From Actinocatenispora sera (lineage in GTDB: Bacteria > Actinomycetota > Actinomycetes > Mycobacteriales > Micromonosporaceae), in NCBI RefSeq assembly GCF_018324685.1, contig NZ_AP023354.1:1922001-1986000 (forward strand): 64,000 nucleotides of DNA, in the 5' to 3' direction. The notes under the pieces were generated by a model that searched no databases, was not told where the DNA came from, and saw only the letters and a list, made by a program, of their open reading frames with translations. Position 1 is the first letter of the stretch. Every line of letters starts with the position of its first letter. Positions 3,893 to 32,859 of this stretch are shown in pieces. The translations under genes were made by a program, and so were the position numbers.

Positions 3893-5371
3893 GTGGCACT
3901 GGTGTTGGGGTGGATCCGGCGGGCCTTCCGGCTGCCGCTTCGGTCGGTGGCGTTCGACGCGTCCGCCGCGGCGATCGTGGCCGCCTTCTCCGGTTTCGTA
4001 CTGTTCGCGAGCGAGTGGTGGAGCGGCCTGATCGGGTTCGGGATGGCCGTCACGCTGCTGCCGCGGCGGCGCTGGCCGGTCCCGGCGTTCGCGGTCATCT
4101 GCGTGCTCGGGCTGCTGCAGCTGATCCTCGCCGGCCGGATCCAGGCGTACGACATCGCCGTGCTGCTGGCGATGTACACGGTGGTGAAGTACGCGGACCG
4201 GATGGCCTGGGCGTGGCTCGCCGCGGCGACCGTCGTCGTCGGCTGCGCCGTCTTCGGCCTGATCGGCAACGGCACGCCGCCGGAGACCTGGTACCGGCGC
4301 GGCGCCACGCTGCTGATCTGGGCGATCCCGGTCTGGCTGACCGGTCTGGTGCTGCGCACCCGCCGCCTCTACGTGCGCAGCCTGGAGGAACGTGCCCGTA
4401 CCGCCGAGCAGGAGCGCGACCAGCGGGCCCGGCTGGCCGTCTCCGACGAGCGCAGCCGCATCGCCCGGGAACTGCACGACGTGGTCGCGCACAGCCTCGC
4501 CGTGATGATCGCCCAGGCCGACGGTGCCTCGTACGCGCTCGCCGGCGATCCGGCCACCGCCCGGGACGCCGTGCGTACCGTCGCCGACACCGGCCGCGGC
4601 GCGCTCGCCGAGATGCGCCGGCTGGTCGCCGTGCTGCGCGACCGCGGTGCCGACGACCCGGCCGCCGACCGCCGGACCGAGCGGCTCAACGACCTGTCCG
4701 TCCTGCTCGACGGGTTCCAGCGGGCCGGGCTGCGGGTCGCGGTGACCACCTCGGGCCGGCCCCGGCCGCTGCCGCACGGCCTCGAACTCGCCGGGTACCG
4801 GATCGTGCAGGAGTCGCTGACCAACGTGCTCAAGCACGCCGGCGCCGGCACGGACACCACCGTGGAGATCCGGTACCGGTCGGAATCGGTCACCGTCACC
4901 GTGCTCGACGGCGGCTCGCTCGACTCGGCGGTACCGGACCCGGTGCCCGGCGGCCACGGCCTGCTCGGCATGCGCGAACGGGTCGGTGTCTACGGCGGTA
5001 CGTTCTCCGCCGGCCCGCGCCGCGGCGCCCCGGGATGGCAGGTCACCGCCACCCTCCCGATCCCTGCCGACGCCAGCTCCCCGCCGGATCCCGAGCACGC
5101 GACCACACCACCGGCCCCGCGCGAGGCCTGCACCGAGGCAGATCCCGGCCCCGCCGCCTCGCTGTCGGGCCCGGGCGGTGCCGCCTCGCCGTCGGATTCT
5201 GGCGACCGCGCCACGCTGCCGGATCGCGCCGACCCCGCGGTACCGGACCTCGGCGCGCCGGCCGAGCCCGGCGCGCCCGGGGCCGCGCCGGGTGGCTCGA
5301 TGGCCGGCGAACCGGCCCCGCACGGTACGGTCGGCGCACGGCCGGCGAGGGAAGGGCAGCAACTCCGATGA
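3893..5371 (+). CDS. Two-component sensor histidine kinase, NarL/DesK type
   Basis: The 492-residue protein begins with several hydrophobic segments (roughly residues 15-145), giving a membrane sensor with little extracytoplasmic sequence. A coiled linker leads to a HisKA_3 dimerisation motif, RIARELHDVVAHSL, whose phospho-accepting histidine is about residue 195. The ATP-binding domain follows, with QESLTNVLKHA and the GHGLLGMRERV motif. After about residue 395 there is a roughly 95-residue Pro/Ala/Ser-rich tail not typical of the family. GTG at 3893 is chosen because it opens the first hydrophobic region; GTG at 3902 is also possible, and an ATG at 3818 would overlap the divergent methyltransferase gene. 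Its stop overlaps the response-regulator start (ATGA), so the two are translationally coupled. The stimulus is unknown. Confidence 0.9.
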   Translation: MALVLGWIRRAFRLPLRSVAFDASAAAIVAAFSGFVLFASEWWSGLIGFGMAVTLLPRRRWPVPAFAVICVLGLLQLILAGRIQAYDIAVLLAMYTVVKYADRMAWAWLAAATVVVGCAVFGLIGNGTPPETWYRRGATLLIWAIPVWLTGLVLRTRRLYVRSLEERARTAEQERDQRARLAVSDERSRIARELHDVVAHSLAVMIAQADGASYALAGDPATARDAVRTVADTGRGALAEMRRLVAVLRDRGADDPAADRRTERLNDLSVLLDGFQRAGLRVAVTTSGRPRPLPHGLELAGYRIVQESLTNVLKHAGAGTDTTVEIRYRSESVTVTVLDGGSLDSAVPDPVPGGHGLLGMRERVGVYGGTFSAGPRRGAPGWQVTATLPIPADASSPPDPEHATTPPAPREACTEADPGPAASLSGPGGAASPSDSGDRATLPDRADPAVPDLGAPAEPGAPGAAPGGSMAGEPAPHGTVGARPAREGQQLR

Positions 5372-21671: not shown

Positions 21672-24191
<2,520 letters not shown>

Positions 24192-24207
24192 CAGCAGGCA
24201 ACACCGC

Positions 24208-24239
24208 ACTGGCCCCGGACCGCACGGTCCGGGGCCAGT
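24208..24239 (+). terminator. clpC terminator
   Basis: ACTGGCCCCGGACCG (24208-24222) and CGGTCCGGGGCCAGT (24225-24239) form a perfect 15-base inverted repeat around CA, 16 bases after the clpC stop, followed by GTCGTTTC. Confidence 0.85.
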
Positions 24240-24253
24240 GTCGTTTCGGGGTC

Positions 24254-24331
24254 GGCGTCCGGGCGTGGCCGGTGGTGCCGGCGTCCGGGTATGGCCGGTG
24301 GTGCCGGCGTCCGGGTATGGCCGGTGGTGCC
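24254..24331. repeat. Three tandem copies of a 26-base unit
   Basis: Units beginning GGCGTCCGGG and ending GGTGGTGCC occupy 24254-24279, 24280-24305 and 24306-24331. The last two are identical and the first differs at two bases. They sit between the clpC terminator and the CGNR gene stop, outside any coding sequence I trust. Confidence 0.85.
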
Positions 24332-24339
24332 GACGGAGG

Positions 24340-24945
24340 TCAGGCGGTGCCGGCGTGTCGCTGGTAGTGCCGGGCGACCCGGGCGCGGTTGCCGCAGGAC
24401 GGCCGGCACCACTGCTGGCGGGGGCTGCTGCGGACGAAGTAGCGCACGCAACGCGGTGCCTGGCAGGCCCGGAGCTGATCGAGGTTCGGGCCGGACAGGA
24501 ACTCGATGGCCGCGCGGGCAAGGCCGGCGGCCAGGCGGGACCGCTCGTCGTCCGGTTCGCCGCGCCAGGCGACGGTCGGCGCCGCCGCGTCCGGCCAGCC
24601 GAGTACCGGGTGTACGGGGACCGCGGCGGCGGCCAGGTTGAGCCGGTCCAGCGCCACAGGCGACGGCAGCAGCGCGTGCGCGTCCGCGCGGCTCGGCGGC
24701 TCGGGCCGTACGGCCTCGGCGAACAGGCTGCGCATCGCCAGCCGCACGGACACGACGGCGGCCCGGGTCGGCTCGTCGGCGGCACCGATGCCACCGAGGT
24801 ACGAGCGGAGCGGCTCGGCCTCCGCCCGCAGCCAGGACGCCAGGCCGGGAACGTCGGCGAGGTCGTCGGCGACCCCGCCGGCCCCGTCGTGCCGGAGCGT
24901 GCCGGACAGGGCCAGGGACAGCCGGACCACCTGCTCGGACGACAT
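24340..24945 (-). CDS. CGNR zinc-finger (ABATE-domain) transcriptional regulator
   Basis: The 201-residue protein has an N-terminal helical ABATE-type domain and a C-terminal CGNR zinc finger: CQAPRCVRYFVR then QQWCRPSCGNRARVARHYQR, giving four cysteines as C-x4-C and C-x3-C with the CGNR box near residue 185. Such proteins are presumed DNA-binding stress regulators. The start at 24945 has GGGAAGGGACG upstream. It is divergent from the metallophosphoesterase gene, with a long palindrome between the two starts that is its likely operator. Confidence 0.85.
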   Translation of the reverse strand: MSSEQVVRLSLALSGTLRHDGAGGVADDLADVPGLASWLRAEAEPLRSYLGGIGAADEPTRAAVVSVRLAMRSLFAEAVRPEPPSRADAHALLPSPVALDRLNLAAAAVPVHPVLGWPDAAAPTVAWRGEPDDERSRLAAGLARAAIEFLSGPNLDQLRACQAPRCVRYFVRSSPRQQWCRPSCGNRARVARHYQRHAGTA

Positions 24946-24995
24946 CGATCTCGTCCCTTCCCGGTTGCGGAGTCGGACCGGCTCACTCTAGCGTG

Positions 24996-25026
24996 CCTAA
25001 TGCTTGATCTGAATCAAGGCATTAGG
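24996..25026. promoter_or_regulatory. Long inverted repeat overlapping the phosphoesterase ribosome-binding site
   Basis: CCTAATGCTTGAT (24996-25008) pairs with ATCAAGGCATTAGG (25013-25026) with one bulged base and a short CTGA loop. The right arm runs into the GGAGGAG ribosome site of the gene at 25037. It can be a protein operator or an mRNA hairpin that hides the ribosome site. Confidence 0.65.
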
Positions 25027-25036
25027 AGGAGAGCCC

Positions 25037-25783
25037 GTGTTGCTCATCGCACACGTCAGTGACACCCACCTGGACAGCCATCCACGCTCCGCCGAGCGGA
25101 CCGCCCGGGTGTTCGACTACCTGCACGAACTGCCGCGGCAGGTGGACGCGATCCTGGTCACCGGGGACATCGCCGACCACGGCGAGGTCGCCGAGTACGA
25201 GCTGGCGGCCAGGCTGTTCGACTCGCCGCTGCCGGTCCTCGTCTCCCCGGGCAACCACGACGTCCGGGCCGCGTACCGGAAGGGGCTGCTCGGCGACGAC
25301 AGCGGCGCGACCGGGCCGATCAACGCGCGGCACGACGTCGCCGGCGCGGTGTTCCTGGTCGCCGACTCGTCGATCCCCGGCGAGGACGCCGGGCGGCTCG
25401 ACGCGGAGACGCTGGACTGGCTCGCCACCGAACTCGACTCGATCCCGGCGGCCACGCCGACCTTCGTGGCGTTCCACCATCCGCCGGTCGTCCTGCACCA
25501 TCCGGTCATCGATCCGACCCGGTTGCTGGACGCCGACCCGCTCGCCGCGCTGGTGGCCGCGCATCCGCAGGTCGTCGCGGTGCTGACCGGCCACTTCCAC
25601 ACCGCCGCCGCGAGTACGTTCGCCGGCCGGCCGCTGCGGATCGCGCCCGGCGTGGTGTCCACGCTGCGGATGCCGTGGGAGGGCGACGGACCGCTGGTCA
25701 CACAGAGCCAGCCGCCGGGCGTCGCGTTCCACGTGTACGACGACGCCGGGCTGCTCACCACGCACTACCGGGTGGTGGTGTAG
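25037..25783 (+). CDS. Metallophosphoesterase, CpdA-like
   Basis: The 248-residue cytoplasmic protein has the complete calcineurin-like set: HVSDTHLD at residues 5-12, GDIADHGE, PGNHDVR, AFHHPP and TGHFHTA. The size and motif spacing resemble class III phosphodiesterases such as CpdA and Rv0805, which act on cyclic nucleotides or other phosphodiesters, but substrate range in this family is broad. GTG at 25037 follows TAGGAGGAGAG. It is divergent from the CGNR regulator and its ribosome site lies inside a palindrome, so regulation by that protein is plausible. Confidence 0.85.
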   Translation: MLLIAHVSDTHLDSHPRSAERTARVFDYLHELPRQVDAILVTGDIADHGEVAEYELAARLFDSPLPVLVSPGNHDVRAAYRKGLLGDDSGATGPINARHDVAGAVFLVADSSIPGEDAGRLDAETLDWLATELDSIPAATPTFVAFHHPPVVLHHPVIDPTRLLDADPLAALVAAHPQVVAVLTGHFHTAAASTFAGRPLRIAPGVVSTLRMPWEGDGPLVTQSQPPGVAFHVYDDAGLLTTHYRVVV

Positions 25784-25790
25784 CCGCCGG

Positions 25791-26678
25791 TCAGGACGGC
25801 AGGGCGTAGCGGTCGCCGGGGAGGCGGTGCACCAGGCCGTCGTCGAGCAGGCCGGCCAGCGCCCGCTCGCGCTGGGTACCGTCCTGCCACACCGCGTCGA
25901 GCGCGGCGCGCGGCACCGGCGCGGTGGCCTCCCGCAGCACCGCCATCAGCAGGCCACGCACCTGCCGGTCGGTGCCGGCGAACTTCTGGACCTTGCGGGC
26001 CGGTCCGGTCGCCGCCGGGCGGCCGGCGCGCTGCCAGCCGCACTCGGCGTACACCGGGCAGTCCGCGCAGCGCGGGGCGCGGGCGGTGCAGATCAGCGCG
26101 CCGAGCTCCATGAACGCGATCGAGGCGCGGGCCGCATCGGCCGGGTCGGCCGGCAGCAGCTCCTCCACCGCGGCTAGGTCGGCCACCGTACGAGGCGGGC
26201 CGGCGTCGGCGAGCGCCGTCACGGCCCGGGCGACGAACCGGCGGACGTTGGTGTCCACCACCGGGTGCCGGTCGCCGTAGGCGAACACGGCGACCGCCCG
26301 CGCCGTGTACGAACCGATGCCGGGCAGCGCCAGCAGCGCCTCGACCTCCCGCGGCACCTCGCCGCCGTGCCGCTCCACCAGCGCCTTCGCGCACTCGTGC
26401 AGCCGCAGCGCGCGACGCGGGTAGCCCAGCCGGCCCCAGGCCCGGATCACCTCGGCCGCCGGCTCGACGGCCAGGTCCTGCGGGGTGGGCCAGCGGGCCA
26501 GCCACTCCCGCCACACCGGCAGTACCCGGTGCACCGGGGTCTGCTGCAGCATGATCTCGCTGACCAGCACCGCCCAGGCGGACACGTCCGGCGCCCGCCA
26601 GGGCAGCTCGCGGGCGTGTTCGGCGTACCAGTCGCCGACGAGCGCGGCCAACCGCCGCTGGAGTACCGAGCCGTCCAT
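25791..26678 (-). CDS. mutY: A/G-specific adenine glycosylase
   Basis: MutY removes adenine paired with 8-oxoguanine. The 295-residue protein carries the catalytic region SEIMLQQTPV with its glutamate, the helix-hairpin-helix LPGIGSYTARAVAVF, the catalytic aspartate in VVDTNVRR, and the iron-sulfur ligands C-x6-C-x2-C-x5-C in CTARAPRCADCPVYAEC. The C-terminal 8-oxoG-recognition domain is short, as in mycobacteria. ATG at 26678. It converges with the phosphoesterase gene, seven bases away. Its closeness to disA and radA matches the mycobacterial neighbourhood. Confidence 0.95.
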   Translation of the reverse strand: MDGSVLQRRLAALVGDWYAEHARELPWRAPDVSAWAVLVSEIMLQQTPVHRVLPVWREWLARWPTPQDLAVEPAAEVIRAWGRLGYPRRALRLHECAKALVERHGGEVPREVEALLALPGIGSYTARAVAVFAYGDRHPVVDTNVRRFVARAVTALADAGPPRTVADLAAVEELLPADPADAARASIAFMELGALICTARAPRCADCPVYAECGWQRAGRPAATGPARKVQKFAGTDRQVRGLLMAVLREATAPVPRAALDAVWQDGTQRERALAGLLDDGLVHRLPGDRYALPS

Positions 26679-26752
26679 CGTCGCCCGATCCTGCCACACC
26701 GCCCCGGCAGACCCCGGTACCGCCGGGACGAGGCGCTCGGTGCCGAGCCGCG

Positions 26753-27253
26753 TTATGCGCGGTAGTTCTTGCCGATCGGGGTGCCGGGGATCGGCTGGGC
26801 GATCAACGCGACCGGGATGAACAGGCAGATCTGGCCGATCACCAGGGTGAGCGTCCACAGCGCCCGCTCGTCGTAGTGCGCGGCGGCCCGGGCGTACAGC
26901 TCGTCGTCGACCCGCCGGCCGGTCGGGTTCGGCACGAGTACCGCCTCCACCAGCTCCAACGCGACCCGCTCGGCGTCGGTGAAGTACGGTGCGTCCCGCC
27001 ACGAGGCGACCGCGGTGATGCGCTCCTCCGGCTCCCCCGCCTTGCGCAGCAGGTCCGTCTGCCGCACCGTGTGGTAGGTGCTGCCGACGATCTGGCCGGC
27101 CCGCAGCTGTACCAGGCCGATCGTCGCCCGGGGCACGGCGCCGTTGCGGGCCGCCTTGGCCAGCGCGGTCGACACGGCGCCCAGCTCCGGGAAGTACCGG
27201 GCCGGGTCGGGCAGCCGGGAGGTGGCGGCGGCTGGTTCGGTGCTCGTGGTCAT
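26753..27253 (-). CDS. Carboxymuconolactone decarboxylase/AhpD-like protein lacking the redox cysteines
   Basis: The 166-residue protein is all-helical and AhpD-like: LRAGQIVGSTYHTVRQTDLLRKAG aligns with the usual core in which a C-x2-C pair and a following histidine form the active site. Here those three positions are Ser, His and Gln, so peroxidase activity of the AhpD kind is unlikely. Such CMD-domain proteins are typical partners of ECF41 sigma factors, and an ECF41 gene is divergent 189 bases away. A promoter-like motif matching that of the sigma gene precedes this gene. The C-terminus is hydrophobic (LTLVIGQICLFIPVALI). Its function is unknown. Confidence 0.8.
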   Translation of the reverse strand: MTTSTEPAAATSRLPDPARYFPELGAVSTALAKAARNGAVPRATIGLVQLRAGQIVGSTYHTVRQTDLLRKAGEPEERITAVASWRDAPYFTDAERVALELVEAVLVPNPTGRRVDDELYARAAAHYDERALWTLTLVIGQICLFIPVALIAQPIPGTPIGKNYRA

Positions 27254-27310
27254 CTCGCGTGGTTCCTCTCGTCCGAACGGGCGTCGGTCGTCCCGATGCC
27301 TCGCCCCTTC

Positions 27311-27337
27311 GACGACGCGCGGCTGCCGAACGTGAGG
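27311..27337 (-). promoter_or_regulatory. Candidate ECF41 promoter of the AhpD-like gene
   Basis: Read on the minus strand, CCTCACG (27337-27331), 16 bases, then CGTC (27314-27311). The spacing and the TCACG / CGTC core match the ECF41 promoter form TGTCACA-N16-CGTC as I recall it from the literature. The gene begins at 27253. Confidence 0.55.
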
Positions 27338-27372
27338 CGGCCCGGCGCTGTGATGTGCCCGCCGGACGGTGG

Positions 27373-27399
27373 CGTCACGACCGGGCGTGCTGTTTCGTC
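27373..27399 (+). promoter_or_regulatory. Candidate ECF41 promoter of the sigma gene
   Basis: CGTCACG (27373-27379), exactly 16 bases, then CGTC (27396-27399). This would start transcription near 27406, about 36 bases before the ATG at 27442, and implies autoregulation. Confidence 0.6.
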
Positions 27400-27441
27400 G
27401 AACCGGTGGGGGAGTCGGGGTACGAGAGGGACGGTGGGTGG

Positions 27442-28362
27442 ATGGACACGGGGTTTGTGGACGATCCGGGCCTGGCGGCGGTCGTCGGCGAGCGGCGCGC
27501 GCTGATGAACCTCGCGTACCGGCTGTTGGGCTCGCTCGCCGACGCCGAAGACGTCGTGCAGGAGACGTACCTGCGCTGGTACCGGCTGTCCGCGGAGCAG
27601 CGGGCGCAGATCGTGTCGCCGGGCGGCTGGTTGACCACGGTGGCCAGCCGGATCTGCCTCGACGTGCTCGGCTCGGCGCGCGCCCGGCGGGAGCGCTACG
27701 TCGGCGAGTGGATTCCCGAGCCGGTGCCGGGCGACGGGACGCCGCTCGGTGGCCCGGTGGCGGGCCCGCCCGACGATCCGGCCGACCGGGTCACCCTGGA
27801 CGAGTCGATCACGATGGCGTTCCTGGTCGTCCTGGACTCGATGACGCCGGCCGAGCGGGTCGCGCTGATCCTGCACGACGTCTTCGGGTACCGGTTCGCC
27901 GACGTGGCGGGGATCGTCGGCCGCAGCGAGGCGGCGTGCCGGCAGCTGGCCACCTCGGCGCGGCGCCGGATCCGGGCGGCGCAGCCCGCGGCGGCGCCGG
28001 ACGGCGCGGTGCGCCAGCGGGTGGTCCGGGACTTCCGCCGGGCCTGGGAGGCGCAGGACATCGACGCGCTGTTGGGCCTGCTCGATCCGGACGCCACCGT
28101 CGTGGTGGACGGCGGCGGGCTGGTGCATGCGGCCCTGCGTCCGATCCACGGTGGGGACCGGATCGTCCGGTACCTGCTGCGCTTCGTCGGCCCCGGTCCG
28201 CGCACGACGCTGCTGGAACGCACCGTGAACGGCCGGCCGGGCCTGGTGGCGCGGCGCGGCGACGACCTGGTCGTGGTGGCCGCGGTCGAGGTCACCGGCG
28301 ACCGGATCAGCCGGATCTGGGCGGTACGTAACCCGGAGAAGCTCCGCGCCGACTGGGCGTAG
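27442..28362 (+). CDS. ECF41-group RNA polymerase sigma factor with fused C-terminal SnoaL-like domain
   Basis: The 306-residue protein has sigma region 2 (LAYRLLGSLADAEDVVQETYLRWY) and region 4 (LDSMTPAERVALILHDVFGYRFADVAGIVGRSEAACRQLATSARRR). A roughly 110-residue SnoaL-like domain follows in place of a separate anti-sigma factor. Both motifs reported for ECF41 are visible: DGGG at the VVVDGGG stretch and an NPDKL-like NPEKL near the C-terminus. In this group the fused domain itself controls activity. ATG at 27442 follows GGGTGG. The divergent AhpD-like gene and the downstream dehydrogenase/epimerase-like gene are the classic partner types, and all three carry the same promoter motif. Confidence 0.93.
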   Translation: MDTGFVDDPGLAAVVGERRALMNLAYRLLGSLADAEDVVQETYLRWYRLSAEQRAQIVSPGGWLTTVASRICLDVLGSARARRERYVGEWIPEPVPGDGTPLGGPVAGPPDDPADRVTLDESITMAFLVVLDSMTPAERVALILHDVFGYRFADVAGIVGRSEAACRQLATSARRRIRAAQPAAAPDGAVRQRVVRDFRRAWEAQDIDALLGLLDPDATVVVDGGGLVHAALRPIHGGDRIVRYLLRFVGPGPRTTLLERTVNGRPGLVARRGDDLVVVAAVEVTGDRISRIWAVRNPEKLRADWA

Positions 28363-28416
28363 AAACGTAACCTTCACCGCATATCCGCCGAAACCCGATC
28401 TGCGCCGATCGTGGCA

Positions 28417-28443
28417 CGTCACGTTTCCGGCCGGCGTACCGTC
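28417..28443 (+). promoter_or_regulatory. Candidate ECF41 promoter of the SDR gene
   Basis: CGTCACG (28417-28423), exactly 16 bases, then CGTC (28440-28443). Expected initiation falls at about 28450-28452, on the ATG at 28452, so the message would be leaderless. Confidence 0.65.
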
Positions 28444-28451
28444 GGATGGTC

Positions 28452-29231
28452 ATGACACGAGTGTTGGTGACAGGCGGTACGGGTGTGCTCGGCCGGGCAC
28501 TGGTCGAGCGGCTCAAGGAACGCGCCGAGGTACGGGTGCTCAGCCGGCGCGAGGGGCTGCCGACCGGTTCGGTCCGCGGCGACCTGGAGAGCGGCACCGG
28601 GCTGGCCCAGGCTCTCGACGGGGTGGACGCGATCGCGCACTGCGCGACCAGCGCCGACTACCGACATCCCGAGCGCGACGTGGCGCAGACCCGGCGGCTG
28701 CTCGCCGAGCGCGGCGAGCGGCCGCTGACCTACATCTCGATCGTCGGCGTGGACGAGATCCCGTTCGCCTACTACCGGGCCAAGCTCAACTCGGAACTGG
28801 CCATCGCGCAGTCCGGCGCGCCGTGGACGGTGCTGCGCGCCACCCAGTTCCACGACCTGGTGTTGCGCTTCCTGCGGCCGATCGCGCGCCCGCCGATCGC
28901 CCTGGTACCGAACCTGACGGTGCAGCCGGTCGACGTCGGCGACGTGGCCGACCGGATGGCCGACCTGGTGCTCGGTGAGCCGGCCGGGCGGGTGCCGGAC
29001 ATGGGCGGGCCGGAGGTGACCGCGCTGCCCGACCTGATGCGCACGTACCTGTCGGTCGCCGGACTGCAGCGGCGCGTGCTGCGGATGCCGGTACGGCTGC
29101 CGGGGCGCACCATGGCGGCGTTCCGGGGCGGCGCGCACCTGACGCCGGACCACCCCGACGGGCGCGTCACGTTCGCCGAGTACCTGGAGCGGTTGCGCCA
29201 GTCGGACGGCACCATCAGCAGCGCGTACTGA
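28452..29231 (+). CDS. NAD(P)-binding SDR/NmrA-like oxidoreductase
   Basis: The 259-residue protein is an atypical short-chain dehydrogenase/epimerase-like protein: VLVTGGTGVLGRALVERL at residues 4-21 binds NAD(P), then AIAHCATSADYR, TYISIVGVDEIPFAYYRAK (YxxxK type) and LRATQFHD. It resembles NmrA/YwnB-like proteins that sense or use NAD(P)H. The ATG at 28452 is preferred to the one at 28446 because the ECF41-like promoter ends at 28443, there is no ribosome-binding site, and initiation should fall on it. It is a likely member of the sigma factor's regulon. The substrate is unknown. Confidence 0.85.
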   Translation: MTRVLVTGGTGVLGRALVERLKERAEVRVLSRREGLPTGSVRGDLESGTGLAQALDGVDAIAHCATSADYRHPERDVAQTRRLLAERGERPLTYISIVGVDEIPFAYYRAKLNSELAIAQSGAPWTVLRATQFHDLVLRFLRPIARPPIALVPNLTVQPVDVGDVADRMADLVLGEPAGRVPDMGGPEVTALPDLMRTYLSVAGLQRRVLRMPVRLPGRTMAAFRGGAHLTPDHPDGRVTFAEYLERLRQSDGTISSAY

Positions 29232-29333
29232 CCGGTCCGGTGCCCGCACACCACGTGTGACGCGGGTGATCGGCGGCCGTCGATCCGGCGCGCCTACCGG
29301 CTTTCGCCGACGTCGTCGCTAACGTGTTCGAGC

Positions 29334-30047
29334 ATGCGGATGACGGTTGGCCCGCTCCCACCCGCCGTCTACTGGCGACGGCGGGTGGTCGTGCTGGCCG
29401 GCGTGGCGCTGGTGGTCGTGCTCACCGTGTGGGCGTGCAGCCCGGGGGCGCCCAAGACGTCGTCCGGCCCGCACGCGGCCGGAGCGAAGCACTCGTCGCG
29501 CCCCGGGTCCGGCTCCGGAACGGCGACCGGCCCGGTGACCGGTGACCCGTCGCCCACTGGCAGCGCCTCGGCGAGCCCCACGCCGACCGCAGGCAGCGGC
29601 GACGGCGCGCCGGTCGACGCCTCCGCCGTACCACCGCCGGCCGACGACGACGAACCCGCCGGGCACTGCAGCGACGACGCGCTGACCGTCTCGGTACGGG
29701 TGGACCCGCGCACCATGCCGGCCGGTTCGACCCCGGCGCTGTACCTGACCATCGGGAACGGCTCGCGCAAGGCGTGCACCCGCGACATCGGCGCCGACCA
29801 GCAGGAGCTGTACGTCAAGCACGGCGACACGACGGTCTGGTCGTCGGACTACTGCGACGCCAACCACGGCTCCGACGTCCGCCGGTTCGACCCGGGCGTG
29901 CACGTCACGTACCGGTTGGTGTGGGACGGCCGCACGGCGAGCAAGGGCTGCAAGACGGCCCGGCACGCCCTGTCCCGCGGCTCCTACTCGCTGGACGGCC
30001 GGGTCGGCACCAAGCACGCCAAGCCCTTCCCGCTGACCGTCACCTGA
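29334..30047 (+). CDS. Membrane-anchored secreted protein of unknown function
   Basis: The 237-residue protein has an N-terminal hydrophobic segment (about residues 17-34) ending VWACSPG, which could be a lipobox or an uncleaved anchor. A Ser/Thr/Gly/Pro-rich linker follows to about residue 105. The C-terminal extracytoplasmic domain of about 130 residues has paired cysteines (CSDDALTV, CTRDIG, YCDANHG, KGCKTA) and looks like a small beta-sandwich. I do not recognise a named family. The start lies eight bases after TAACGT with no clear Shine-Dalgarno sequence. It converges with disA. Confidence 0.75.
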   Translation: MRMTVGPLPPAVYWRRRVVVLAGVALVVVLTVWACSPGAPKTSSGPHAAGAKHSSRPGSGSGTATGPVTGDPSPTGSASASPTPTAGSGDGAPVDASAVPPPADDDEPAGHCSDDALTVSVRVDPRTMPAGSTPALYLTIGNGSRKACTRDIGADQQELYVKHGDTTVWSSDYCDANHGSDVRRFDPGVHVTYRLVWDGRTASKGCKTARHALSRGSYSLDGRVGTKHAKPFPLTVT

Positions 30048-30096
30048 CCGCCTCACTCGGCCCAGTCGAGCTGCGGTTCCGCACAGCAAGGGGCCG

Positions 30097-31173
30097 TCAG
30101 ACGTAGCGTTCCAGGATGGAGGCCTCGGCGAGGCGGGAGAGGCCCTCGCGGACGGTGCGGGCGCGGCTGTCGCCGACGCCGTCGACGGCCTGCAGGTCCT
30201 CCACGGTGGCGCCGAGCAGCCGCTGCAGCCCCCCGAAGTGGCCGACCAGCCGGTCGACCACCGGGGACGGCAGCCGCGGCACCTTCGCCAGCAGCCGGAA
30301 CCCCAGCGGGCTGATCGCCGCCTCCAGCGCCTCGGTGGTCGCCGGGTAGCTGAGCGCCTTGGCGACCGCGGTCAGGTCCAGCAGCTCGGTCGCGGACAGC
30401 TCGTCGAGCTGCGCCAGCACCTCGTGCACCTCCGGCGGGATCCGCCCCGGCGGGAAGTAGTCGCGGATGACCAGGGCGCGGTCCTCGTCCACGCCGGCCA
30501 TCAGCTCGTCGAGCTGCAGCGCCAGCAGCCGGCCGTCGGTGCCGAGCTCGATCACGTACCCCTCGATCTCGTCGGCGATCCGGCGCACCATCTCCAACCG
30601 CTGCACCACGGCCATCGCGTCCCGCACCGTGACCAGGTCCTCGATCTCCAGCGCGGACAGCGTGCCGGACACCTCGTCCAGTCGCGCCTTGTACCGCTCC
30701 AGGGTGGCGAGCGCCTGGTTCGCCCGGGACAGGATCGCCGCCGAGTCGTCCAGCACGTGCCGCTGCCCGGTCACGTACAGGCTGATGATGTGCATCGACT
30801 GGCTCACCGAGATCACCGGGTACCCGGTCTGCCGGGCCACCCGCTCCGCGGTGCGGTGCCGGGTGCCGGACTCCTCGGTCGGGATCGACGGATCGGGCAT
30901 CAGGTGCACCGCGGCCTGCACGATGCGTGAGCAGTCGTTGGTGAGGATGACCGCGCCGTCCATCTTGCACAGCTCGCGCAGCCGGGTCGCGGAGAACTCG
31001 ACGTCCAGCGGGAAACCCCCGGTGCACAGCACGTCGACGGCCCGGTCGTACCCGAGCACGATCAGCGCCCCGGTGTTGCCGCGCAGGATCCGCTCCAGGC
31101 CCTCCCGCAGTGCGGTGCCCGGCGCCATCAGCGCGAGCGTCGCGCGCAGCGGATCATCCCGGTCGATTGGCAC
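30097..31173 (-). CDS. disA: Diadenylate cyclase / DNA integrity scanning protein DisA
   Basis: DisA makes c-di-AMP from two ATP and responds to branched DNA. The 358-residue protein has the N-terminal DAC domain with the catalytic motifs DGA at residues 72-74 and RHR at 105-107. A helical linker follows, and then a C-terminal helix-hairpin-helix domain ([30 protein letters not shown]). GTG at 31173 has GAAGGAG eight bases upstream. radA lies just upstream on the same strand, as in many Gram-positive bacteria where RadA interacts with DisA. Confidence 0.97.
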
Positions 31174-31386
31174 CTCGCCGCTCCTTCGATCACCGCCGGA
31201 GAACCGGGGCCGCCCCGCCCCGGTCACGGGCCACCCCGCCCGGCACAGTGTAGGGAATCCGGGGCATGCCATCACCGCCCCGACGATCACTCGCTCACGC
31301 TTCGTGTCCGAAGCGATGTGCACGGCTCCGGTCGGCCGCGAGCAGGCGAAGGCAATGCCGTCGGTACCGGTATGAACCGGGCGGGG

Positions 31387-32859
31387 TCAGTCGCGCGATT
31401 CCCGAGTGGCGTCGGCCACCGCGCGCAGCGCCGCGCCCAGGTCGGGCACCTCGGTGACCGACAGCCCGGCCGGCGCGTCGACCCCGGTCGCGGCCGGCCC
31501 GCAGCCGACCGGCACCAGCGCCCGGGTGAAGCCCAGCCGGGCCGCCTCGGACAGCCGCCGCGGCACCGCCGAGACCGGCCGCACCTCGCCGGCGAGCCCG
31601 ACCTCGCCGATCGCGACCAGGTCGGCCGGCAGCGGGAAGTCGCGGGACGCCGACGCCACCGCCAGACTCACCGCGAGGTCGGCCGACGGCTCGGTCACCC
31701 GCACCCCGCCGACCGTCGCGGCGAACACCTCCCGGTCGTGCAGCCGCACCTTGCAGCGGCGTTCCAGCACCGCGAGCGCCATCGCCACCCGGGCCGAGTC
31801 GAGCCCGGACACCGCGCGCCGCGGCGACGGCAGCACCGACGGCGCCACCAGCGCCTGCACCTCGGTGAGCAGCGGCCGGCGGCCCTCCACCGTCACCGTC
31901 ACGCAGGTGCCCGGCACCGGGTCGGCATGCCGGGACAGGAACAGCCCGGACGGGTCGGCCAGGCCGCGGATGCCGCCGTCGTGCATCTCGAAGCAGCCGA
32001 CCTCGTCTGCCGCACCGAACCGGTTCTTCACCGCGCGGACCAGCCGCAACGTCGAGTGCCGGTCGCCCTCGAAGTGCAGCACCACGTCGACCAGGTGCTC
32101 CAGCACCCGGGGCCCGGCGATCGCGCCGTCCTTCGTCACGTGGCCGACCAGCACGGTGGCGATGCCGCGCTCCTTGGCCACCGCGACCAGCGCCGCGGTG
32201 ACCGCCCGGACCTGGGTCACCCCGCCGGCCGAACCGTCCACCTCCGGGGAGGCGATGGTCTGCACCGAGTCGAGGATGAGCAGGCCCGGCTTGACCGTGT
32301 CGATGTGGCCGAGCACGTTCGCCAGGTCGGTCTCGGTGGCGAGGAACAGGCTGTCGTGCACCGCACCGGTGCGCTCGGCCCGCAGCCGCACCTGCGCCGC
32401 CGACTCCTCGCCGCTGACCACCAGCGACGGGGTGGCCGCGGGCTGCGCCGGCGCGCTGGCACACCAGCGGTAGGCCACCTCCAGCAGCAGCGTCGACTTG
32501 CCGACGCCGGGCTCGCCGGCGAGCAGCACCACCGAACCCGGCACCAGGCCGCCACCGAGCACCCGGTCGAGCTCGCCGACGCCGGTCGGCCGGTGCGCCG
32601 CCTCCTCCAGATCGACCGTGCCGATCGGGCTGGCCGGCACGGACGGGGCGCGCGCGGCGAGTGCCGGCATGGCCGCCGGTGCGGCCGCGGCCGGCGCCGC
32701 CTCGACGACCGAGCCCCAGCTGCCGCAGTCGGGGCAGCGGCCCACCCATTTCGGCACCGCGAACCCGCACGCGTCGCAGTGGTACGCGGGGCGGACGGTG
32801 CGGACCGCCGCACCGCGTGAGGCGGAACCGGGTCGAGTGCCGGAGCTTCGGGAAGTCAC
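31387..32859 (-). CDS. radA: DNA repair protein RadA
   Basis: RadA is a RecA-like helicase for branch migration. The 490-residue protein has the zinc finger C28-x2-C31 and C42-x2-C45, Walker A GEPGVGKSTLL, and the family-specific KNRFG motif (VKNRFGAADEVG). A Lon-like C-terminal domain with YGFTR-related GFTRALVP follows. The GTG at 32859 lies seven bases after TAGCGT with no ribosome-binding site, suggesting a leaderless transcript. About 210 bases separate it from disA, so disA may have its own promoter. Confidence 0.96.
   Translation of the reverse strand: MTSRSSGTRPGSASRGAAVRTVRPAYHCDACGFAVPKWVGRCPDCGSWGSVVEAAPAAAAPAAMPALAARAPSVPASPIGTVDLEEAAHRPTGVGELDRVLGGGLVPGSVVLLAGEPGVGKSTLLLEVAYRWCASAPAQPAATPSLVVSGEESAAQVRLRAERTGAVHDSLFLATETDLANVLGHIDTVKPGLLILDSVQTIASPEVDGSAGGVTQVRAVTAALVAVAKERGIATVLVGHVTKDGAIAGPRVLEHLVDVVLHFEGDRHSTLRLVRAVKNRFGAADEVGCFEMHDGGIRGLADPSGLFLSRHADPVPGTCVTVTVEGRRPLLTEVQALVAPSVLPSPRRAVSGLDSARVAMALAVLERRCKVRLHDREVFAATVGGVRVTEPSADLAVSLAVASASRDFPLPADLVAIGEVGLAGEVRPVSAVPRRLSEAARLGFTRALVPVGCGPAATGVDAPAGLSVTEVPDLGAALRAVADATRESRD

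Follow-up and report, generated by a model that had tools for sequence, protein, structure and literature searches.

How far does the regulon of a sigma factor with its own regulatory domain extend, and what do its targets have in common? The question is raised by a locus of the soil actinomycete Actinocatenispora sera (NCBI RefSeq assembly GCF_018324685.1), in which a gene for an extracytoplasmic function (ECF) sigma factor of group ECF41 stands between a divergent gene for a carboxymuconolactone decarboxylase (CMD) and a downstream gene for an epimerase-like short-chain dehydrogenase/reductase (SDR). The stretch analysed, referred to throughout as the window, comprises 64,000 nucleotides (contig NZ_AP023354.1, positions 1,922,001-1,986,000) of the single-contig, 7.04-Mb genome. 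The factor, presumably equipped with its own brake, probably drives promoters of the form CCTCACA/CGTCACG-N16-CGTC in front of its own gene, the CMD gene and the SDR gene and, most likely, in front of two unlinked genes, one for a flavin adenine dinucleotide (FAD)/nicotinamide adenine dinucleotide (phosphate) (NAD(P)) oxidoreductase and one for a four-helix membrane protein (4-TM). Related loci and other genomes are identified below by L and G numbers, respectively.

Promoter sites at the locus

A first-pass annotation of the window, made from the sequence alone, had placed three promoters of one architecture before the three genes; the coordinates, strands, sequences and 16-bp spacers were all found to be exact (table 1). 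Sites were scored using a 27-bp matrix; the 26 sites that went into it lie before sigma and CMD genes of other genera only, with no Actinocatenispora site among them. The matrix ranked the three sites first to third among approximately 128,000 window positions, with scores of 19.6, 18.6 and 14.8, and the next position scored 6.5. In 100 simulated windows, 20 positions in total scored at least 14.8 (best 19.8, mean window maximum 12.1), so that a single site of this score is not decisive. The real window holds three, and their joint position, each before a gene start of the same locus, is decisive against chance.

The loose pattern SSTCACG-N16-CGTC gave six matches in the window versus a mean of 1.15 in shuffles, none of which (0 of 100) reached six; the remaining three matches read GGTCACG and lie elsewhere in the window. 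When spacers of 15-17 bp were allowed, all matches before the sigma and CMD genes of L091-L111 had 16 bp, except for one match with 17 bp in L104. Sites elsewhere in the A. sera genome were obtained from pattern searches and short stretches. The pattern NSTCACA-N16-CGTC gave nine matches in this genome versus eight for the reversed pattern, i.e. no excess, and the site of the A. sera 4-TM gene described below is one of the nine. A site at 2,497,282 (score 17.5) was set aside as a probable chance match; no gene starts close downstream.

Conservation in other genera and in congeners

Related loci were collected in a CMD-based scan, and the best 80 of 168 loci, fetched by six peptide patterns (YHTVRQTD being one), were analysed. 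Nineteen of the 80 (L091-L111 without L099 and L101), stemming from four families, hold a sigma factor of at least 350 bits together with a CMD. A matrix site was present upstream of the sigma gene in all 19, and on the CMD side in all 19 as well, either before the CMD gene itself (15 loci) or before a co-directional membrane-protein gene upstream of it (L092, L093, L098 and L102); the membrane-protein and CMD genes of these four loci presumably form an operon. In L099, the CMD gene and a membrane-protein gene share a divergent site pair, and the 10.5-kb locus holds no such sigma gene.

The 26 sites yield the consensus CCTCACA with CGTC, so the −35 element of this clade differs from that of the published ECF41 promoter, TGTCACA-N16-CGTC (PMC3426412). 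Compared with the published −35 element, the window boxes differ at two (CGTCACG) or three (CCTCACG) of seven positions, whereas the N16 spacing and CGTC agree. The first-pass annotation had given TGTCACA-N16-CGTC as the published motif; its architecture, spacing and CGTC fit the locus, and its −35 element is replaced here by CCTCACA/CGTCACG.

The closest named CMD locus is that of A. comari (L091, 93% CMD identity), and the CMD matches of G001 and G003, which with G002 belong to the same genus, are 93% and 90% identical, respectively. When the window, A. comari and G003 are aligned, the boxes of the SDR promoter are largely kept (TGTCACG in G003) and the flanking bases vary. The CMD promoter reads CCTCACG in A. 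comari and GCTCACA in G003, and the sigma promoter boxes are intact in A. comari.

The SDR gene and its predicted start

The SDR translation contains a glycine-rich GGTGVLG and a YYRAK, instances of the SDR motifs GxxGxxG and YxxxK, and matches to PF13460 and PF01370 were above cut-off. The −10 box of the SDR promoter ends 8 nt before the ATG at 28452, and the in-frame ATG at 28446 lies only 2 nt from the box. Judged by this promoter position, 28452 is the more likely start and was assigned in place of 28446; the 8-nt gap therefore predicts a leaderless SDR mRNA. A gap of 8-9 nt between −10 box and in-frame ATG recurs before the CMD and sigma genes of L108 and L111 and before the CMD gene of L109, the sigma gene of which has a GTG at 7 nt. 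The recurrent spacing may be taken as indirect support for a start approximately 8 nt after the −10 box.

In G002, an SDR gene (62% identical) stands beside mutY, with neither a sigma nor a CMD gene between them (gene order mutY-SDR-237-aa protein-disA). Upstream of it, TGTCACG-N16-GGTC was found using a relaxed pattern and by eye, again 8 nt from the ATG; this site scores only 1.7 because its −10 element reads GGTC. Either the sigma/CMD pair arrived beside an SDR gene that already had an ECF41-type promoter, or the pair was lost and the SDR gene kept a changed promoter. Either history suggests that a factor acting in trans can serve the SDR gene.

Unlinked candidate targets with such sites

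A gene for a Pyr_redox_2 FAD/NAD(P) oxidoreductase is preceded by CGTCACGTTTCGTTCCGCCGTCTCGTC (2,009,583-2,009,609, score 27.3), 66 bp before its start. In G001, G002 and G003, the orthologues (76, 57 and 77% identity) carry the site at −66, −57 and −66, respectively; it starts 57-66 bp upstream in all four Actinocatenispora genomes, and its boxes are conspicuous in the alignment. A matrix site was also obtained for a more distant homologue from Microtetraspora (L244). Relaxed TGTCAC matches with 16- or 17-bp spacing were observed 38-98 bp before L273, L275, L280, L284 and L286, five of the 27 loci among the matches listed for homologues outside the genus; in sequence they resemble the published ECF41 motif.

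The third gene of the cluster in Nonomuraea and relatives encodes a protein of approximately 120 residues; the model shows four helices, and two histidines (His46 and His103 in L092) are invariant. The A. sera homologue is located at 1,528,181-1,528,567, approximately 421 kb from the window locus, and CCTCACACTTTTCCGCCGTGCCTCGTC begins 80 bp upstream of it (score 14.0). A search of 23 other genomes gave 60 matches, 30 of which were taken as loci, representing 29 genes (L195 is the second half of L176). A site starts 62-111 bp upstream in 13 of the 29 genes, one (L187) sits behind a sigma promoter at −885, and no site was found for the remaining 15, which are mostly lower-scoring. Site presence tracks the 4-TM match score, except that the site-less L188 and L194 outscore the site-bearing L189. 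The site is kept although the gene stands apart from this sigma gene in A. sera, G001, G003 and G075. The G003 gene (L176/L195; 6,619,288-6,619,667) is present in two overlapping pieces and is possibly broken, by a frameshift or through a sequencing error.

No Pfam match over cut-off was obtained for the members tested of the 4-TM family (L092:4560-4958 and relatives, with L174:2182-2568 in A. sera), and the model (predicted local distance difference test score, pLDDT, 82.4) matched no solved structure with E ≤0.001. The two invariant histidines offer haem binding as a possible lead; COX15-CtaA, at E 0.021, remained below the cut-off.

Wider promoter set and sister sigma factors

A strict pattern was scanned across 24 genomes, chosen as holders of CMD loci or as congeners, and gave 71 matches versus six for the reversed pattern, 34 of them in CMD loci and 37 elsewhere; the excess is weakened because those 34 lie in the CMD loci that inspired the pattern. 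Twenty-eight stretches were read, selected for their distal matches or, in a few cases, as related places. Sites in these stretches stand before additional sigma genes of this type and, next to those genes or away from them, before genes of the YceI, SnoaL_3, FMN_red, Pyr_redox_2 and cytochrome b families (those tested); genes for NmrA-like, P450 and CxxC-containing CMD proteins were recognized by eye, and L247 and one site of L249 showed no clear gene. Taken together, the targets suggest that the compounds handled are quinone-like, isoprenoid or other lipophilic redox metabolites.

In the sigma tree, the window factor falls within a 37-row clade (support 100/99) together with two other A. sera sigma factors, encoded at 886 kb and 6.11 Mb. 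The 886-kb sister (L171:2876-10928, approximately 886-894 kb) has four CCTGACR sites among the matches listed, located before the sister gene itself and before SnoaL_3, cupin and epimerase genes. The 6.11-Mb sister (L034, 6,111,308-6,112,165, minus strand) has a divergent site pair with −10 elements GGTC and TGTC; the gene divergent from it resembles, by eye, one for a LUD-domain (LutC-like) protein. The pattern SSTGACR gave 173 matches versus 63 for its reverse, the matches listed covering part of the A. sera genome. A one-base code (TCAC versus TGAC) separating the sisters is not claimed: the base is no strict separator, because L102, L104, L108 and L109 carry both types.

The CMD protein

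The AlphaFold 2 model of the window CMD (pLDDT 93.4) has the AhpD-type fold and matches 2o4d (PA0269; template-modelling score 0.79/0.90) and 7xw1 (AhpD). The relay of PA0269 consists of Glu36, Cys48, Tyr50, Cys51 and His55 (PMC3141380). In the window protein, Ser58, His61 and Gln65 occupy the catalytic Cys, Cys and His positions, so that CxxC and the catalytic His are absent and only the Tyr (Tyr60) of the relay is kept. Gly46 aligns with Glu36 of PA0269, in a column that varies in CxxC relatives too (Glu in 6 of 13) and says little. The first-pass label 'AhpD-like' describes the fold correctly but misleads as to function, given the loss of CxxC and the catalytic His.

Both cysteines were absent in 67 of the 80 loci, both were kept in 13, and in no locus was exactly one present; the figure of 67 overstates the loss among CMDs at large, because the fetching pattern YHTVRQTD spans the cysteine-less site. 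In the CMD tree, from which rows L062, L148, L156 and L157 had been dropped beforehand, a branch supported at 100/100 separates the 13 CxxC rows from the 72 others (window included), and a 29-row clade, likewise supported at 100/100, contains the 25 His61 rows. If the root is placed on the CxxC side, the tree fits a single loss. Both Cys and the His were absent in all 19 loci holding the clade sigma factor, with Ser-His-Gln in 16 and Ala-His-Gln, Asn-His-Gln and Ser-His-Lys in one each. According to Wecke et al. (PMC3426412), all ECF41-linked CMDs contain CxxC; as judged by these alignments, the cysteine-less clade is an exception to that statement. Two further A. sera CMDs near ECF41-type sigma genes (L036 and L042) keep CxxC. 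The window CMD would act as a ligand-binding protein or a non-thiol enzyme, not as a thiol peroxidase; its role may be that of an enzyme without thiols, of a carrier for a ligand or, by analogy with the Sesn-C domain of Sestrin, of a regulator.

A second cysteine-less CMD group (the GSTYLTVLHTGNLR type) was observed in many of L117-L147, and many of these loci also hold an ECF sigma factor with the linker LPDP and without NPDKL. In G002 (L256, approximately 4167-4378), a short CMD-like piece that matches residues 128-165 and is perhaps a remnant has CCTGACG-N16-CGTC (score 18.6) upstream of it.

Locus layout and the sigma factor

The sigma factor has regions 2 and 4 only, both above their Pfam cut-offs, and is of ECF size; the nearest solved structure by sequence is SigJ (5xe7). 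Its first-pass assignment as an ECF41 factor with a fused SnoaL-like domain was borne out by the Pfam domains, the SigJ-subfamily match and the motifs. Of the motifs named at that stage, DGGG, an ECF41 motif, is intact, and the NPDKL-type motif is present as NPEKL. WIPEP and NPEKL are each one change away from the linker motif WLPEP named for ECF41 in PMC3426412 and from NPDKL, given together with YVGPWLPEP in PMC7730460. The divergent CMD and the downstream epimerase-like SDR gene supply the flanking genes typical of ECF41, i.e. those of the carboxymuconolactone decarboxylase, oxidoreductase or epimerase (COE) types.

With regard to a possible anti-sigma gene, the neighbours encode a MutY-like protein, CMD, SDR, a 237-aa protein and DisA; the 237-aa protein gave no NCBIfam match at 1e-10, and its gene stands in G002 too, where the window-type sigma gene is absent from the locus. 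Positions 21672-32859 of the window form a housekeeping run, with a Clp ATPase (which we take to be ClpC), a phosphoesterase and the MutY-like protein upstream of the CMD-sigma-SDR genes, and the 237-aa protein, DisA and RadA downstream. The MutY-like protein scores below its NCBIfam cut-off.

Table 1. Features of the sigma factor locus (window positions).
Feature	Position	Strand	Basis
Predicted CMD promoter, CCTCACG-N16-CGTC	27311..27337	−	matrix rank 3; −10 box ends 57 nt before ATG
Predicted autoregulatory sigma promoter, CGTCACG-N16-CGTC	27373..27399	+	matrix rank 2
Predicted SDR promoter, CGTCACG-N16-CGTC	28417..28443	+	matrix rank 1
Divergent CMD/AhpD-fold gene, 166 aa	26753..27253	−	PF02627, 39.2 bits (cut-off 23)
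ECF41 sigma factor gene, 306 aa	27442..28362	+	NF007214 (SigJ subfamily), 299.6 bits (cut-off 271); Pfam domains
Sigma region 2, residues 18-80	27493..27681	+	PF04542
Linker motif WIPEP (ECF41 signature WLPEP)	27709..27723	+	read in YVGEWIPEP
Sigma region 4 (Sigma70_r4_2), residues 126-177	27817..27972	+	PF08281
SnoaL_2 regulatory domain, residues 195-270	28024..28251	+	PF12680, 29.3 bits (cut-off 27)
DGGG motif	28108..28119	+	sigma protein translation
NPEKL motif near C-terminus (ECF41 NPDKL)	28330..28344	+	sigma protein translation
SDR/NAD(P)-binding epimerase-like gene	28452..29231	+	PF13460, PF01370; longest open reading frame from 28446

Proposed mechanism and alternative readings

By analogy with studied ECF41 factors, the fused SnoaL_2 domain would serve as the brake and probably the sensor of the window sigma factor. 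Release of the brake, presumably through a small hydrophobic ligand or another signal, would free the factor, which would direct RNA polymerase to CCTCACA/CGTCACG-N16-CGTC promoters and start transcription of its own gene, of the divergent CMD gene and of the downstream SDR gene, the last as a predicted leaderless mRNA, and probably also of the unlinked FAD/NAD(P) oxidoreductase and 4-TM genes. Positive autoregulation would sharpen the response, though perhaps not in G003, and the products would form a small set for redox or lipophilic-metabolite handling. The earlier proposal that one sigma factor drives itself and two flanking effectors is supported by the conserved sites; the accompanying term 'local regulon' is probably too narrow, because conserved copies of the promoter precede the unlinked 4-TM and FAD/NAD(P) oxidoreductase genes.

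Several observations weigh against this mechanism. The matrix was fixed at a spacing of 16 bp, and the strict pattern misses all three window sites and the A. sera 4-TM site, so that it undercounts in this genus. L101 encodes a CMD of the same type and holds neither the sigma gene nor a site scoring above 9.2. The sigma promoter of G003 keeps CGTCACG with a −10 box reading CGCC (score 9.2), and autoregulation therefore appears to be weakened in this one congener. The score of the A. sera 4-TM site is within the reach of chance in the simulated windows, and a matrix site was found in front of none (0 of 27) of the FAD/NAD(P) oxidoreductase homologues outside the genus among the matches listed. 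The loose pattern, the sister factors and G002, considered below with the alternatives, count on the same side.

A shared pool, in which the window factor and its two sisters read overlapping sets and the FAD/NAD(P) oxidoreductase, 4-TM and perhaps SDR genes answer mainly to a sister, is possible, albeit at a low probability. The sisters might serve the distal sites: all three A. sera factors of the 37-row clade have a divergent pair of the same architecture, and G002, in which no sigma factor exceeds 67% identity and a close orthologue of the window factor is thus absent, keeps the FAD/NAD(P) oxidoreductase and 4-TM sites and the variant SDR site. Against this, the sites of the sisters (CCTGACR; −10 elements GGTC/TGTC) differ from the window and distal ones, which have TCAC and CGTC, and the −35 element of the FAD/NAD(P) oxidoreductase gene, CGTCACG, is identical to those of the window sigma and SDR genes.

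A purely local regulon, as with the studied ECF41 factors of Bacillus licheniformis and Rhodobacter sphaeroides, in which the distal sites would be a coincidence, is quite unlikely. A random genome-wide frequency of the motif, which the first-pass annotation had named as counting against its proposal, is nearly reached by the loose pattern, which alone is close to random because it gave 69 matches genome-wide versus 51 for the reversed pattern; the strict pattern lies far above its control (71 versus 6). The A. sera site of score 17.5 without a gene close downstream likewise favours coincidence. However, the distal sites are kept in congeners amid variable flanks, and the site follows the 4-TM orthologue whether or not it is linked to the sigma gene. 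Chance occurrence of the three sites in GC-rich DNA, or their binding of another regulator, is highly improbable: single sites of at least 14.8 do arise approximately 0.2 times per simulated window, but here three precede three starts of one locus, and site pairs recur in 19 of 19 loci from four families.

A bolder reading is rather doubtful. By analogy, the cysteine-less CMD could be a ligand-binding switch partner for the same type of hydrophobic molecule as SnoaL_2, and the clade could have repeatedly recruited small binders (SnoaL_3, YceI, cupin, CMD) and redox enzymes. The CMD would then be a carrier, sink or direct feedback partner, like Sesn-C after its catalytic loss, and the clade would comprise related, partly insulated switches for lipophilic metabolites that share one promoter code, with targets moving off and keeping their promoter.

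Comparison with known systems

In studied ECF41 proteins, the C-terminal extension acts mostly as an inhibitor, activity requires its first part, and the NPDKL tail is connected with the linker motif WLPEP (PMC3426412). As stated there in 2012, the inducing condition was known for no ECF41 factor, and the CxxC of the linked CMDs was taken by Wecke et al. to suggest a role in oxidative stress. In the present clade, the link between sigma factor and target and the promoter are kept and the thiol centre is lost, which argues, at least here, against thiol peroxidase activity being the point. An ECF41 factor controls motility and lateral flagella in Azospirillum, according to a title cited in PMC8999054, so there is a precedent for larger ECF41 regulons. 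The accessible text of the RIViT-seq paper (PMC9205884) holds nothing on ECF41 targets, and the literature searched, which comprised few subscription papers and no supplements, gave no mention of ECF41-linked CMDs without CxxC, of this promoter variant or of ECF41 in these genera. A ligand common to the sensor and the effectors becomes a testable idea, and a promoter code that holds across genera allows prediction of the regulons of the clade, unlinked members included.

The nearest solved fold of the window CMD is that of the AhpD-like PA0269 (2o4d, 2ijc; AhpD, 7xw1), the relay of which differs (PMC3141380). Sesn-C of Sestrin2 (PMC4674687) has an AhpD-related fold, lost its catalytic residues and became a regulator; it is a eukaryotic domain of a larger protein, and a regulatory role of the window CMD would be an analogy only. 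The system of Sinorhizobium meliloti RpoE9/SMb20029 (PMC6180224) likewise combines an ECF41 factor with a CMD target and has a TGTCACA-type promoter; RpoE9 differs in having a single target, and its CMD gene lies upstream, is likely to be co-transcribed and keeps CxxC. Ecf41Bli, Ecf41Rsp and SigJ of Mycobacterium tuberculosis (PMC3426412) share with the window factor the sigma2-sigma4 arrangement with a SnoaL-like extension, WLPEP/NPDKL-type motifs, COE neighbours, a bipartite promoter with a spacer of approximately 16 bp and CGTC, and, apparently, the lack of an obvious anti-sigma gene. Unlike in these three systems, the −35 element of the window clade is CCTCACA/CGTCACG and not TGTCACA, the CMD is without CxxC, the sigma factor is likely to have several targets, some of them unlinked, and a leaderless SDR mRNA is predicted. 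The locus is thus not a new kind of system but a real ECF41 locus with conserved promoters, and what is new in it is the variant promoter, a target without the cysteines and evidence that the regulon has unlinked members.

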